Shown: one piece after another, positions 11,224-32,004 of the stretch
Numbering within the stretch: the stretch's first letter is position 1
Layout: each line of letters begins with the position of its first letter
DNA from: Thiomonas bhubaneswarensis
GTDB lineage: Bacteria; Pseudomonadota; Gammaproteobacteria; Burkholderiales; Burkholderiaceae_C
Length of the DNA: 64,000 nucleotides
Reading direction: 5' to 3'
NCBI RefSeq assembly: GCF_001418255.1
Contig: NZ_LIPV01000001.1
Span: 248,001 to 312,000, forward strand
Notes under the pieces: generated by a model
The model's input: the letters and a program-made list of their open reading frames with translations, nothing else
The model's database searches: none
What the model was told of the DNA's origin: nothing
Position numbers and translations under genes: made by a program

Positions 11224-12090
11224 TCAGAAGTGGTATTCGACCCGTACCATCGGCGTGCTGGCCTTAGCGCCGGGCACGGTGGATGCTGGGTTACCGAACT
11301 TGTTGCGCCAGTATTGGTACTGCACCCCGGCCCACAGCTTGTTCGGTGTACTGTAGAGCGCCTTGCCCACGTCGTACATGATCTCTGTGGAGAGCAGGGT
11401 CTCTGGCACGGTGCCGTAGCCCTTGGCACCGATGTGGTCGAAGAAGCCGCTCCACTTGAAGCTGCCGCCGGCGAAGGGAATGCCCCAGTCCGCGGCCAGC
11501 ACGTAGGTGGTGTTGAAGCTCACGTCTCCCCCCTTCGGATAGGGGTTGAAGCCGTTGTGATTGCTCTCCTTGTAAAGCTCCAAGCCAATCTTGGCATAGC
11601 CCGGCACGTTTAGGCCGAGCATGGGGCCGATGCGGAACTTGCGTACGCGCGGCGCGAAGGTTGTGTTCTTGGCAGAATAGTCGAAGCCCATGCCGAGCAT
11701 CACATCGTTGATCGGCCCCCAATGGATCTTGTTGCCGCTGATCTGCGCGTATGAGAAGGTGCGGCGATAGACCGCGTAGATTTCCTGTGCTCCAGCCGCC
11801 GCGCAGTTGGTGCCTGACGCGCAGGCCTCGGGGTCGGAAGAGTCGGACATCAGTACATCCATGTTGAAAAAGTTGGTGCCGAGCGAATCGCCGCTGGCGT
11901 AAGAGAAGCCGAGGATGCGCTTAGCGATGTCCTTCGGATTTCCGGGTTCTGCAAATTGGGTACCGTACTGGGCGTGGATCCAGGCGTCACTCCAGATAGC
12001 TGCCTGGGCCGGGGCGCTTGCGAAACCCAAACTGACCGCGAGGATGGATACGGTGGCGAAGGCTTTGCCGGTATGGTGACCTGCTTTCAT
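11224..12090 (-). CDS. Tsx-like outer-membrane nucleoside channel
   Basis: The 288-residue precursor has a Sec signal (AVSLGFASAPAQA, cleavage before AIWSDAW near residue 30) and ends in the outer-membrane insertion signal VEYHF. The mature start with WSD, the YGTQFAEPGNPKDIAKRIL block and alternating aromatic beta-strands match the Tsx nucleoside-channel family, which lets nucleosides and some bases cross the outer membrane. Its place at the edge of a nucleobase-catabolism island supports that role. It lies downstream of the 2-oxoglutarate oxygenase gene but across a 138-base gap with a hairpin, so it may have its own promoter. Confidence 0.72.
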   Translation of the reverse strand: MKAGHHTGKAFATVSILAVSLGFASAPAQAAIWSDAWIHAQYGTQFAEPGNPKDIAKRILGFSYASGDSLGTNFFNMDVLMSDSSDPEACASGTNCAAAGAQEIYAVYRRTFSYAQISGNKIHWGPINDVMLGMGFDYSAKNTTFAPRVRKFRIGPMLGLNVPGYAKIGLELYKESNHNGFNPYPKGGDVSFNTTYVLAADWGIPFAGGSFKWSGFFDHIGAKGYGTVPETLLSTEIMYDVGKALYSTPNKLWAGVQYQYWRNKFGNPASTVPGAKASTPMVRVEYHF

Positions 12091-12181
12091 GTTGTGTTCT
12101 CCCTATGGATGAAAGTGATGAGGCATGAGTGAACTGGAACGATGTCCAGACAAGTTCCCGGGTTGAAAAGCGGGTGTGGGC

Positions 12182-12202
12182 ACCGCGCCGCAGCGGCGCG
12201 GT
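12182..12202 (-). terminator. hairpin in the gap between the 2OG-oxygenase and Tsx-like genes
   Basis: ACCGCGCCG-CAG-CGGCGCGGT is a perfect 9-bp stem with a 3-base loop, 26 bases after the stop of the upstream gene on the minus strand. It lacks an adjoining T-run. It may separate the porin from the ABC/oxygenase operon. A second small inverted repeat (CTGGA/TCCAG, 12134-12149) lies nearer the porin start and could be an operator. Confidence 0.4.
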
Positions 12203-12228
12203 AAAGGGCGAAGAAGCGGACGCAGGAC

Positions 12229-29284: not shown

Positions 29285-29324
29285 GGGATTCTCCGGGATG
29301 GCGAGGGGGATCGGACGGCCGCGC

Positions 29325-30641
29325 TCAATTTGCACTCAGGCAGGCGCAGGCGGCGTTGTTGGGATGCTCGGTCCAGCGCAGCGGCTGCGCGCTGACCGGC
29401 TGGCCGGTGCGCGCGTCCACTTCGCCTGCCGCGAGGTCGCGCAGGGTGATGCAGTCGGGCACCGGGCAGACGTTGACGCAGAGGTTGCAGCCCACACAGT
29501 CCTCCTCTTTCACGACGAAGCGGCGCTGGCCGTCCACACTGGCGGTGATGGCCTGGTGCGAGGTGTCTTCGCATGCGATGTGACAGCGACCGCACTGGAT
29601 GCACAAATCCTGGTCGATCACGGCCTTGGACACATGGTTGAGGTTGAGGTACTTCCAGTCTGTCACCGAGGGCAGCGCGCGGCCGCTGAGTTGGGCGATG
29701 CTGGCAAAGCCCATCTCGTCCATGTAATTGGACAAACCGTCACACATCTCCTGCACGATCTTGAAGCCGTACACCATGGCAGCGGTGCAGACCTGCACGC
29801 TGCCCGCGCCCAGAGCGATGTAGTCCAGCGCGTCACGCCAGTTGCCGATGCCGCCGATGCCTGAGATCGGCATGTCTGCTGTGGCGGGATCGCGTGCAAT
29901 CTCGGCCACCATGTTCAGTGCAATCGGCTTGACCGCCGGGCCGCAGTAGCCGCCGTGCGAGCCCAGGCCGCCCGTGGAGGGCTGCATGGTGAGCGTGGCC
30001 GGATCGACGCCGATGATGGAGTTGATGGTGTTGATCAGCGACACCGCGTCGGCCTCGCCGGCCCGCGCCGCGCGCGCTGGGTAGCGCACGTCGGTGATGT
30101 TGGGGGTGAGCTTGACGATGACCGGCAGGCGGCTGTAGTGCTTGCACCAGGCGGTGACCATTTCGATGTATTCGGGCACCTGCCCCACGGCCGAGCCCAT
30201 GCCGCGCTCGCTCATGCCGTGCGGACAGCCGAAGTTGAGTTCGATGCCGTCGCAGCCCGTGTCTTCGACCTGGGGCAGGATGGCTTTCCACGCCTGCTCC
30301 TCGCACGGCACCATCAGCGACACCACCAGGGCGCGGTCGGGCCAGTCGCGCTTGACCTGGGCGATTTCGCGCAGGTTCACGTCCAGCGGGCGGTCGGTGA
30401 TGAGTTCGATGTTGTTGAAGCCCAGCAGCCTGCGGTCGGGGGTGAGCAGGGCGCCGTAGCGCGGGCCGTTGACGTTGACCACTGGCGGCCCGGCCTCGCC
30501 CAGGGTCTTCCACACCACGCCGCCCCACCCTGCCTCGAAGGCACGCACCACGTTGTAGGCCTTGTCGGTCGGCGGCGCCGAGGCCAGCCAGAAGGGATTG
30601 GGACTGCGGATACCCGCAAAGTCGATGCGCAGATCAGCCAT
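29325..30641 (-). CDS. preA: NAD-dependent dihydropyrimidine dehydrogenase subunit PreA
   Basis: A 438-residue protein: an FMN-binding dihydroorotate-dehydrogenase-like barrel (start [23 protein letters not shown] in two parts, [16 protein letters not shown]), then two C-terminal [4Fe-4S] motifs, [11 protein letters not shown] and [16 protein letters not shown]. PreA reduces uracil and thymine to the 5,6-dihydro compounds with electrons passed from PreT. Its start overlaps the preT stop by 8 bases and dihydropyrimidinase follows after 40 bases. It is slightly longer than E. coli PreA (411 residues), mostly at the C-terminus. Confidence 0.95.
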
Positions 30642-32004
30642 AAGCGATTTCCCGATGTTGAGTGGCAGTATCTCTGGCTGCGCTCAGTTGCGCGTGAATG
30701 GAGTGCGCGGCACGTTTGCCGTGCTCCACGGCTTCGACGGTGAGTTCCAGACCGCCGATACAGTCACCGCCCGCCCAGACGCCAGGCAACGATGTGCGCC
30801 CTTGCGCATCGACCACGATGCGGCCCCGCGCCAGTTCCAGCCCGGCATCACGCAGCCAGGGGTTGCCCAGTGTCTGGCCGATGGCCTTGAGCACCATGTC
30901 GGCCACCAGCGTTTCGGTCTCGCCCGTGGGAAGCAGTCGGCCGTCTTGCAGCGTCTGACGTGCAAAGCGCACAGCTTGTACCTTGCCGTGCTTACCTATC
31001 ACCTCCTCGGGCGCCAGCCAGTGGCGGATGGTCACGCCATGCGTCTGTGCCCAGTGTTGCTCATCCTTCGACGCGGACATGCTGGATTCGCCACGGCGGT
31101 AGACCATGGTCACCTGTTCCGCGCCAAGCAGCCTGGCCTGCACGGCGGCGTCCACGGCCGTCATGCCGCCACCGATGACCACGACACGACGGCCGAGCGG
31201 AATCTGCTCCAGATCCCTGGCCTGCCGCAACGCGGCAATGAAGTCCACCGCGTCATGCACGCCTTCCAGCATCTCGCCAGGAATGCCGAGAGAGTGTGTG
31301 TCGTCCAGACCGATGCCGAGGAACACGGCATCGAATTCGTCCCGCAGCGCCTGCAATTGCAGTGCGGATTCCAGCCTCCAGCCGTTGTGCAGGGTGATGC
31401 CACCGATGTCCAGTAGCCAGGCCACTTCCCGCTGCGCGTAATCACCGGCGGTCTTGTAAGCCGCCAGTCCGTATTCGTTGAGACCGCCCGGCTTGGCGCG
31501 GGCGTCGAAGACCTCCACGTCATAGCCTTGGCGCGCCAAGGTATGCGCGCAGGCCAGGCCGGCGGGTCCGGCGCCGACGACGGCCACGCGCTCCCCCAGA
31601 CACGCCGCACGCTGAAAGACCTGCGGTCTCGGGCTTTGCATGAGCGTGTCGATCGCATGGCGCTGCAGGCGGCCGATGGCCACGGGCAGGTCCTGCTGGG
31701 TGTTGCGCACGCAGACCTTCTCGCACAGGTCTTCTGTGGGGCAGACGCGGGCACACATGCCGCCCAGCGGGTTGGCGTCGAGAATGGTTTGCGCTGCACC
31801 GCGCAGATTGCCGTCGGCAATGCGGCGGATGAAGGAGGGCACGTCGATCCGCGTTGGGCAGGCTCGGGTGCAGGGCGCGTCGAAACAGTACAGACAGCGC
31901 TCGGCTTCGAGTAGCGCCTGTGAGGCGGTCAGGGGAGGCACTGCATCGGCGAAGCGAGCCATCAGATCGGTGGCTGGCATCTCGGACCGCAGATGAGAAG
32001 ACAT
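30634..32004 (-). CDS. preT: NAD-dependent dihydropyrimidine dehydrogenase subunit PreT
   Basis: A 456-residue glutamate-synthase-beta-like flavoprotein. The N-terminal cysteine clusters CLYCFDAPCTRACPTRID and CARVCPTEDLCEKVC bind [4Fe-4S] centres, then come an FAD loop (VAVVGAGPAGLACA) and an NAD loop (VVVIGGGMTAVDAA). It accepts electrons from NADH for PreA. It is the first gene of the reductive pyrimidine operon. A RutR-like palindrome lies 37-52 bases upstream of the ATG. Confidence 0.95.
   Translation of the reverse strand: MSSHLRSEMPATDLMARFADAVPPLTASQALLEAERCLYCFDAPCTRACPTRIDVPSFIRRIADGNLRGAAQTILDANPLGGMCARVCPTEDLCEKVCVRNTQQDLPVAIGRLQRHAIDTLMQSPRPQVFQRAACLGERVAVVGAGPAGLACAHTLARQGYDVEVFDARAKPGGLNEYGLAAYKTAGDYAQREVAWLLDIGGITLHNGWRLESALQLQALRDEFDAVFLGIGLDDTHSLGIPGEMLEGVHDAVDFIAALRQARDLEQIPLGRRVVVIGGGMTAVDAAVQARLLGAEQVTMVYRRGESSMSASKDEQHWAQTHGVTIRHWLAPEEVIGKHGKVQAVRFARQTLQDGRLLPTGETETLVADMVLKAIGQTLGNPWLRDAGLELARGRIVVDAQGRTSLPGVWAGGDCIGGLELTVEAVEHGKRAAHSIHAQLSAARDTATQHREIAYG

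Follow-up and report, generated by a model that had tools for sequence, protein, structure and literature searches.

Positions 11224-32004 of the DNA analysed here, a window of 64,000 nucleotides from contig NZ_LIPV01000001.1 of Thiomonas bhubaneswarensis, carry genes of two oxygenases, two ABC importers, an amidohydrolase and the reductive pyrimidine route. Do these genes form one pathway, and which compounds do they serve? A sequence-only reading had joined them in a single 21-kb nucleobase island. The genes of that reading were found to be present, while the single island resolved into two units which meet tail to tail at 20371/20376. Unit 1 (11224-20371) contains an importer, a Rieske oxygenase, a 2-oxoglutarate (2OG)-Fe(II) oxygenase, an amidohydrolase and a flavodoxin-fold protein around a xanthine (NMT1) riboswitch. 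Unit 2 (20376-32004), entirely on the - strand, contains PreTA, dihydropyrimidinase, carbamoylase, cytosine deaminase, its own importer and a RutR-like regulator. The explanation preferred here, which as a whole stands evenly poised, is that these are two neighbouring but separate catabolic units, of which unit 1 takes up pterins, which are related to folate and guanine, and breaks them down toward xanthine sensed by the riboswitch. The earlier outline of imported heterocyclic bases, two oxygenases and one deaminase is retained.

The + strand of unit 1 is a tight operon, in which the riboswitch is followed by the genes of the Rieske oxygenase (16388..17464), the ABC ATPase of importer 1 (17479..18318; PF00005), the deaminase (18341..19774) and the flavodoxin-fold protein (19781..20371). 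The aptamer (RF03054, 16272..16321, + strand) was absent from the sequence-only reading and was identified here by Rfam, with 50.1 bits against a gathering score of 36 (E 3.7e-8 in the window). No other match to RF03054 was listed in the 3.2-Mb genome. The Rieske start lies 66 bases downstream of the aptamer, and the conserved junction nucleotides of RF03054 were found to be present on alignment to the consensus and 14 relatives. According to Yu and Breaker 2020 (PMC7373994), aptamers of this class bound xanthine, urate and 8-azaxanthine, and one example was shown to switch expression OFF. The ligand and the OFF direction of the window riboswitch are predictions taken from the literature. In the crystal structure of the aptamer the 2-oxo pyrimidine edge is recognised and C8 is open to solvent, which makes lumazine-like compounds candidate ligands; N7 and N9 are also contacted in this structure, and these contacts may speak against such ligands (PMC8266621).

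Among the genes of unit 1, only the deaminase has a functional anchor. It had been described as 8-oxoguanine-deaminase-like, of which the amidohydrolase part stands and the 8-oxoguanine part does not. On the longer frame 18194-19774 (the start codon at 18341 was chosen in this analysis) the family PRK12393 gave 740.6 bits against a cut-off of 543, while the 8-oxoguanine deaminase family PRK08203 gave 385.2 bits, below its cut-off of 532. The best solved-structure match was 2PAJ (670.9 bits), followed by 3HPA (256.7 bits), named only 'amidohydrolase' in the PDB, and 7WW2 (245.8 bits), named 8-oxoguanine deaminase / hydroxydechloroatrazine ethylaminohydrolase. An identity as 8-oxoguanine deaminase was rejected because the score is below the family cut-off and the sequence falls with 2PAJ; with an enzyme apparently of isoxanthopterin-deaminase type, 8-oxoguanine was also given up as the substrate. 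The window deaminase and the aligned part of 2PAJ are 64% identical over 472 positions, and they share the PRK12393 family and the metal-site motifs (THHH 69, HSH 240, H279 and D330), residues within which presumably bind the metal. At ten positions, 2PAJ, the window protein and at least 95% of 74 cluster deaminases share a residue that differs in both 3HPA and 7WW2; T246, beside E245 of the HSH region, is among these ten. We take 2PAJ to be the Sargasso Sea isoxanthopterin/pterin-6-carboxylate deaminase assayed by Hall et al. 2010. According to PMC5270733, which cites Hall et al., isoxanthopterin and pterin-6-carboxylate are deaminated by enzymes of this family that were described from marine DNA of the Sargasso Sea. 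A near-identical gene was found in a riboswitch operon: the aligned 2PAJ chain (472 residues) is 99.4% identical to the product of L147:12744-14207 of Paraburkholderia fungorum LMG 16225, the last gene of an operon with riboswitch (46.0 bits), binding protein, Rieske oxygenase, ATPase and permease. What is new here is that the deaminase is tied by homology to 2PAJ and thereby to the riboswitch-Rieske-ABC operon of P. fungorum, suggesting isoxanthopterin-type chemistry.

The combination of genes is already described, and its chemistry is not. The sequence-only reading knew of no described pathway with this combination, while the gene set is the published context of the xanthine riboswitch: pcbC (IPNS-like), NMT1/THI5, tauA-type importers, other dioxygenases, PRK12393 and tsx are listed with it in PMC7373994, according to which the precise functions of these enzymes are not established. 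The operons of that study (Yu and Breaker 2020, citing Weinberg 2017) resemble unit 1 in riboswitch class, oxygenases, binding proteins, importer and PRK12393. They differ in that the paper reads them as purine oxidation, whereas the present analysis links the deaminase to an assayed enzyme of pterin type, and in that the window has one aptamer and not a divergent pair.

To follow the conservation of unit 1, named genomes were scanned with nine Rieske proteins; 487 relatives were confirmed, of which the best 80 were compared, with more beyond these. As the 80 loci were picked by Rieske similarity, their counts do not represent an unbiased sample; families were counted by direct comparison and riboswitches by a custom model. 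These loci span Burkholderiales, Pseudomonadales, Hyphomicrobiales and others. The deaminase was found in 67 of them (62 of the 70 loci of at least 15 kb), the riboswitch in 56 (50 of the 70) and both together in 48 of the 70; several of the 13 loci without deaminase lack it since the contig ends. Importer genes were found in 67-69 of the 80 loci. When six loci were put to Rfam, four showed a xanthine riboswitch above the cut-off while L162 and L171, both from Bradyrhizobium, showed none, in agreement with the custom model. No riboswitch match was obtained in the eleven Bradyrhizobium loci, which have retained the deaminase, the Rieske oxygenase and the binding protein, ATPase and permease of the importer. 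A second sample consisted of 200 genomes of the family, probably Burkholderiaceae to judge by named relatives, for which the co-occurrence statistics ignore kinship. It contained 39 carriers of the riboswitch, 49 of PreA, 28 of the Rieske oxygenase (E 1e-40) and 14 of the PRK12393 deaminase above cut-off. Deaminase and Rieske co-occurred in 10 genomes against 2.0 expected (p 4e-7). Unit 1 is not a chance grouping; its relatives recur in Beta-, Gamma- and Alphaproteobacteria.

The nearest named relative was a Thiomonas metagenome-assembled genome (MAG), L101, with 89% Rieske identity. Another MAG of the same SulCav series, L103, is filed as Edaphobacter (Acidobacteriota) and has Thiomonas-like genes (84% Rieske identity); this contig is probably misbinned. 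At least two Rieske genes, mostly in tandem, were present in L105, L107, L116-L118, L132-L134, L136, L144, L161, L164 and L175, and such paired copies mostly fall in different clades where both are in the tree.

The surroundings of the deaminase follow a plan with varying parts. Recurrent neighbours in the 80 loci were FAD_binding_4 oxidase (23 loci), creatininase (22), flavodoxin-fold protein (18), VanB-type reductase (15), isochorismatase-family amidase (15), 2OG oxygenase (13) and RidA (10). Within 10 kb of the deaminase in its 14 genomes, the riboswitch was present in six (G000, G165, G039, G164, G047 and G041) and the Rieske gene in eight, namely those six with G109 and G101. A 2OG oxygenase takes the place of the Rieske oxygenase in G001 and G009, together with importer genes and FAD oxidase, and G001 has in addition creatininase, a CodA-like amidohydrolase, a flavodoxin-fold protein and RidA. 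The deaminase stands beside a 2OG oxygenase with no Rieske gene nearby in L187 and L189, and G115 combines importer, deaminase, FAD oxidase and flavodoxin-fold protein. In Bradyrhizobium L162 the Rieske gene is followed by a CodA-like second amidohydrolase, a 2OG oxygenase and a molybdenum (Mo)-hydroxylase. A different arrangement, with no Rieske gene nearby, was observed in G098, G176 and G148 (L185, L186/L192 and L190/L193), where the deaminase occurs with Amidohydro_2, UbiD, a Xan_ur permease and a Bmp-type importer protein. A Mo-hydroxylase adjoins it in G176 and G148, with two Amidohydro_2 genes; in G098, the sequence examined covered UbiD and one Amidohydro_2 and ended before the place where a Mo-hydroxylase would lie. 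This arrangement is possibly a second pteridine route with decarboxylases. G148 carries riboswitch, binding protein and 2OG oxygenase on the same contig, at a distance of 26 kb from the deaminase and ~8 kb past the Mo genes. The recurring plan is thus uptake, an oxygenation for which three unrelated types of oxidising enzyme are used in different genomes, and deamination of a 2-amino-4-oxo ring, followed in some genomes by ring-opening or decarboxylating enzyme families.

Alcaligenes faecalis reportedly converts isoxanthopterin to xanthine through 7-hydroxylumazine, tetraoxypteridine and xanthine-8-carboxylate, in work ascribed to McNutt in 1963-64. A pterin-to-xanthine route therefore needs a deaminase, oxidations, ring contraction and decarboxylation, and it ends in the ligand of the riboswitch. 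The varied oxidation enzymes and the decarboxylase families beside the deaminase fit these needs. In our proposal the substrate in vivo, the role of each oxygenase and all steps after deamination are putative. The NMT1-type ABC importer would bring in a pterin-type compound, and the Rieske and/or the 2OG oxygenase would hydroxylate the pteridine ring or oxidise its 6-substituent; the flavodoxin-fold protein might act as their partner for electrons or flavin. The amidohydrolase would then remove the 2-amino group of isoxanthopterin (or pterin-6-carboxylate), and the resulting lumazine would be oxidised further and ring-contracted to xanthine-8-carboxylate and then xanthine, to be passed to XdhABC. 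Xanthine would be the end product, and the riboswitch would sense it and turn the Rieske-ATPase-deaminase-flavodoxin operon off. A wider and more tentative suggestion, which we think rather improbable as it stands, is that the deaminase-bearing xanthine-riboswitch operons in proteobacteria hold the missing genes of the pterin-to-xanthine route of the 1960s. Rieske, 2OG and Mo-hydroxylases would stand in for one another in hydroxylating pteridines, ring contraction to xanthine-8-carboxylate would fall to creatininase-type or other cyclic amidases, UbiD or Amidohydro_2 would remove the carboxylate, and the riboswitch would sense xanthine as the pteridine end product.

Several observations weigh against a pterin function of unit 1. 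Besides the 2PAJ protein, no enzyme of this operon type has a known substrate, and 2PAJ itself is presumed to be the assayed isoxanthopterin deaminase. The divergent - strand transcript of unit 1 showed no riboswitch match, so that a riboswitch precedes only one of the two transcripts. Masking of the ribosome site on aptamer formation was not shown by the local fold: access without and with the aptamer was 0.74 and 0.77 for the ribosome site and 0.34 and 0.55 for the start codon, giving no clear expression platform. Creatininase, the proposed enzyme of ring opening or contraction, was absent from this genome on search and was rejected as part of the route in this organism, and UbiD/Amidohydro_2 stood beside the deaminase in only 3 of the 14 genomes. 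In a quick tree, 16 Rieske rows form a sister clade with support 100; of their 16 loci, 14 have a cytidine-deaminase (CDA)-fold gene nearby and 0 have the amidohydrolase. This gene is TadA-like and below the TadA cut-off, and since it is present in place of the amidohydrolase, some xanthine-riboswitch operons may serve compounds other than pterins. The published argument is for purines, with the oxygenases likened to HpxDE; isoxanthopterin was bought for the ligand tests of the same study (PMC7373994).

Among the loci of this sister clade, L061, L064, L092 and L178 are near xanthine riboswitches, with divergent riboswitch pairs in L061, L064 and L178.

The strongest alternative, still the less probable one, is that unit 1 serves modified or unmodified purines, with oxygenases which hydroxylate hypoxanthine in the manner of HpxDE or N-demethylate methylguanines and a deaminase which acts on guanine or 8-oxoguanine to yield xanthine or urate. 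The methylxanthine N-demethylases NdmA and NdmB are among the nearest solved relatives of the Rieske oxygenase, and the TadA-like gene of the riboswitch-linked sister clade is compatible with guanine deamination. However, the deaminase falls with 2PAJ and not with the 8-oxoguanine deaminase family, and in assays 2PAJ reportedly accepted only isoxanthopterin and pterin-6-carboxylate from a library that included purines. The genome also already possesses xanthine dehydrogenase (XDH) and guanine deaminase: XdhA, XdhB, XdhC, guanine deaminase and a Xan_ur permease are clustered elsewhere in it. A replacement of xanthine dehydrogenase by the Rieske oxygenase was not supported, as XdhB is present in this genome and above cut-off in 167 of the 200 family genomes. 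The riboswitch ligands xanthine and urate and the comparison of the oxygenases with hpxD/hpxE favor purines (PMC7373994). From the description in that article, HpxDE of Klebsiella, which oxidises hypoxanthine, resembles unit 1 as a Rieske-type oxygenase in base catabolism; in the island, no VanB-type reductase was found among the genes.

The oxygenases and the importer of unit 1 had been named correctly from sequence. The Rieske oxygenase matched the Rieske and VanA_C profiles (PF00355, PF19112) and possesses the motifs CxH/CxxH of the [2Fe-2S] cluster and DNSHFSFVH of the mononuclear iron. Among solved structures it is closest to SxtDIOX and to the methylxanthine demethylase NdmA, with NdmB also near. 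The flavodoxin-fold NAD(P)H oxidoreductase was confirmed by PF02525 / Flavodoxin_2. The - strand arm of unit 1 diverges from this operon and encodes, in order from the riboswitch, two binding proteins, a permease, the 2OG oxygenase and a putative channel. The 2OG-Fe(II) oxygenase (12229..13155, -), of the IPNS/DIOX superfamily, was confirmed by profiles PF03171 and PF14226 (DIOX_N), and its nearest PDB entry is thymine dioxygenase 5C3P. Its iron triad is kept (HxD and distal H), while RxS, present in 42 of 42 matched relatives, reads RYA. The protein is 75% identical between two Thiomonas genomes (the sister is in G165), against 86-96% for the other genes of unit 1. Given the RYA sequence and a divergence greater than that of any other gene of unit 1, the gene may either have specialised or be in decay.

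Profile searches confirmed two ABC importers with NMT1/THI5-type binding proteins. Importer 1 has a permease (13133..13933, -; PF00528), with relatives of at least 50% identity in 67 of the 80 Rieske loci, a binding protein (15023..16030, -; PF09084) and a second copy of it (13977..14981, -; PF09084). The nearest PDB entry of the first binding protein is 3IX1, named formyl-aminopyrimidine binding protein, and THI5 proteins were also matched. These matches speak for another alternative, that unit 1 serves some other heterocycle (a breakdown product of thiamin or folate, a flavin or a plant alkaloid) and that xanthine is a gauge of purine nitrogen supply and not an end product. The creatininase, isochorismatase-family and FAD-oxidase neighbours would fit many heterocycles as well. 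Nevertheless, this alternative is unlikely, as thiamin- and histidine-related compounds failed to bind the aptamer (PMC7373994) and pterin activity is reported for members of the deaminase family (PMC5270733). A thiamin reading of the NMT1/THI5 binding proteins was rejected following PMC7373994.

The last gene of the arm encodes a putative outer-membrane channel (11224..12090, -). It had been called a Tsx-like porin, an identity which could not be established, since no Pfam, NCBIfam or significant PDB match was obtained. Relatives carry homologues there or close by: one of 90% identity at the corresponding position of G165 (L081), and others of 38-42% beside the operon in L107 and L123.

Unit 2 is an ordinary reductive pyrimidine unit. 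It begins with PreT (30634..32004), followed by PreA (29325..30641), dihydropyrimidinase (27839..29335), an M20 amidase of the hydantoinase/carbamoylase family with the beta-ureidopropionase role (26519..27793), importer 2, the regulator (21708..22412) and, as the last gene, a CodA-type cytosine deaminase (20376..21650). Four of the enzymes, as named earlier, scored above curated cut-offs: cytosine deaminase by NF005748 (810.5 bits against 438), with cytosine deaminases as nearest PDB entries, PreA by NF006183 (702.5 against 335), dihydropyrimidinase by TIGR02033 (582.1 against 393) and the amidase by TIGR01879 (424.9 against 204). PreT has the right domains, PF14691 (Fer4_20) and PF07992 (Pyr_redox_2), and the right place, while no equivalog was above cut-off. 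The TetR-family regulator is RutR-like by PF08362 and not RutR proper, for which TIGR03613 gave 183.4 bits against a cut-off of 368. A scan with a RutR box motif gave 5 matches at 3 mismatches against 1.31 expected, and 1 of 100 shuffles reached 5; one of the matches falls in the gap that separates the amidase gene from the ATPase gene (26472-26487). Importer 2 consists, with estimated starts, of an ATPase (25627..26448; PF00005), two permeases (24686..25630, PF00528; and 23505..24704, a reading frame matched by permease models) and an NMT1/THI5-type binding protein (22433..23470; PF09084). In PreT, PreA, dihydropyrimidinase, carbamoylase, cytosine deaminase, regulator and importer unit 2 is like the known reductive pyrimidine (Pre/Pyd) pathway, with nothing unusual except the neighbouring unit 1.

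The sequence-only reading had fed the products of the oxygenase half into this reductive route. In the 200 family genomes, deaminase and PreA occurred together in 4 genomes against 3.4 expected and Rieske and PreA in 9 against 6.9, both at chance level; the oxygenase and amidohydrolase genes are thus largely not conserved together with the pyrimidine half. Riboswitch and PreA shared 15 genomes against 9.6 expected (p 0.02, kinship uncorrected), which counts against separate units. In two of these 15, both Thiomonas, they are 13 kb apart. Among the other 13, the two were not within 15 kb in 11 and the nearest distance was 49 kb (G085); five have both on one contig, at least 49 kb apart, and eight on different contigs. 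Six of these eight have the riboswitch more than 15 kb from the contig ends; it is closer in G039 and G074, whose contigs are too short to judge linkage. Riboswitch and PreA are neighbours in two of three Thiomonas genomes, with the same junction in the Thiomonas MAG L101, and the third genome of the genus, G049, gave no match for riboswitch, PreA, Rieske or deaminase. Within this sample the units are adjacent only in Thiomonas. Outside it, an independent neighbourhood in Burkholderia sp. 8Y (L158) also speaks against separate units: RutR-like, hyuC, preT and preA genes lie there no more than 7 kb away from the deaminase. Genes for preA and preT were found in 2 of 120 loci, L082 (G165) and L158, most loci reaching just 10 kb from the Rieske gene or riboswitch. 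The adjacency of the two units is mostly local. As the units are together only in the genus and deaminase and PreA co-occur at chance, a feed into the reductive route is unsupported. An integrated island, in which trimmed and deaminated bases enter the PreTA route, for example by opening of the pteridine ring to a diaminouracil reducible by PreTA, is very improbable despite the junction in Thiomonas, the second neighbourhood in L158 and the excess of riboswitch with PreA, because the units lie on opposite strands tail to tail under separate controls, are not within 15 kb of each other in 11 of 13 other genomes, with two undecided, and show no excess of deaminase with PreA.

In L158, a c-di-GMP-I riboswitch (L158:14465-14553; 47.3 bits, cut-off 35) follows the riboswitch operon and precedes the RutR-like, hyuC, preT and preA genes (15728-20819).

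A pterin function of unit 1 would connect it with folate-type breakdown. Variovorax sp. F1 provides a case of bacterial pterin deamination in Comamonadaceae, with an Arad3529-type deaminase; it degrades folate to deaminopteroate and the later steps are described as elusive (PMC9513972). An endoribonuclease gene lies downstream of that deaminase (PMC9513972), and RidA-type genes were found in 13 of the 120 loci here. The primer pattern from PMC9513972, with which the Arad3529 type was sought among CodA-like genes of relatives, matched two places in the genome of L178, neither a deaminase. Among the open-licence PMC papers listed, no title or abstract start was found that joins pterin catabolism with the xanthine riboswitch or 2PAJ; PMC9881143, on a THF-II riboswitch structure, was the one paper listed with both terms in one search. 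The role of the dioxygenases under the xanthine riboswitch and the use of gauging xanthine were left open by Yu and Breaker (PMC7373994). If unit 1 degrades pterins, this question would get an answer testable gene by gene, the assayed deaminase would gain an operon, a riboswitch and an importer, and folate-type breakdown, whose mechanisms are not fully understood (PMC9513972), would gain candidate genes beyond deamination.

Just upstream of preT on the same strand, positions 32213-34851 of the window encode a LigB-type extradiol dioxygenase, two YceI-domain proteins and a cytochrome b561.

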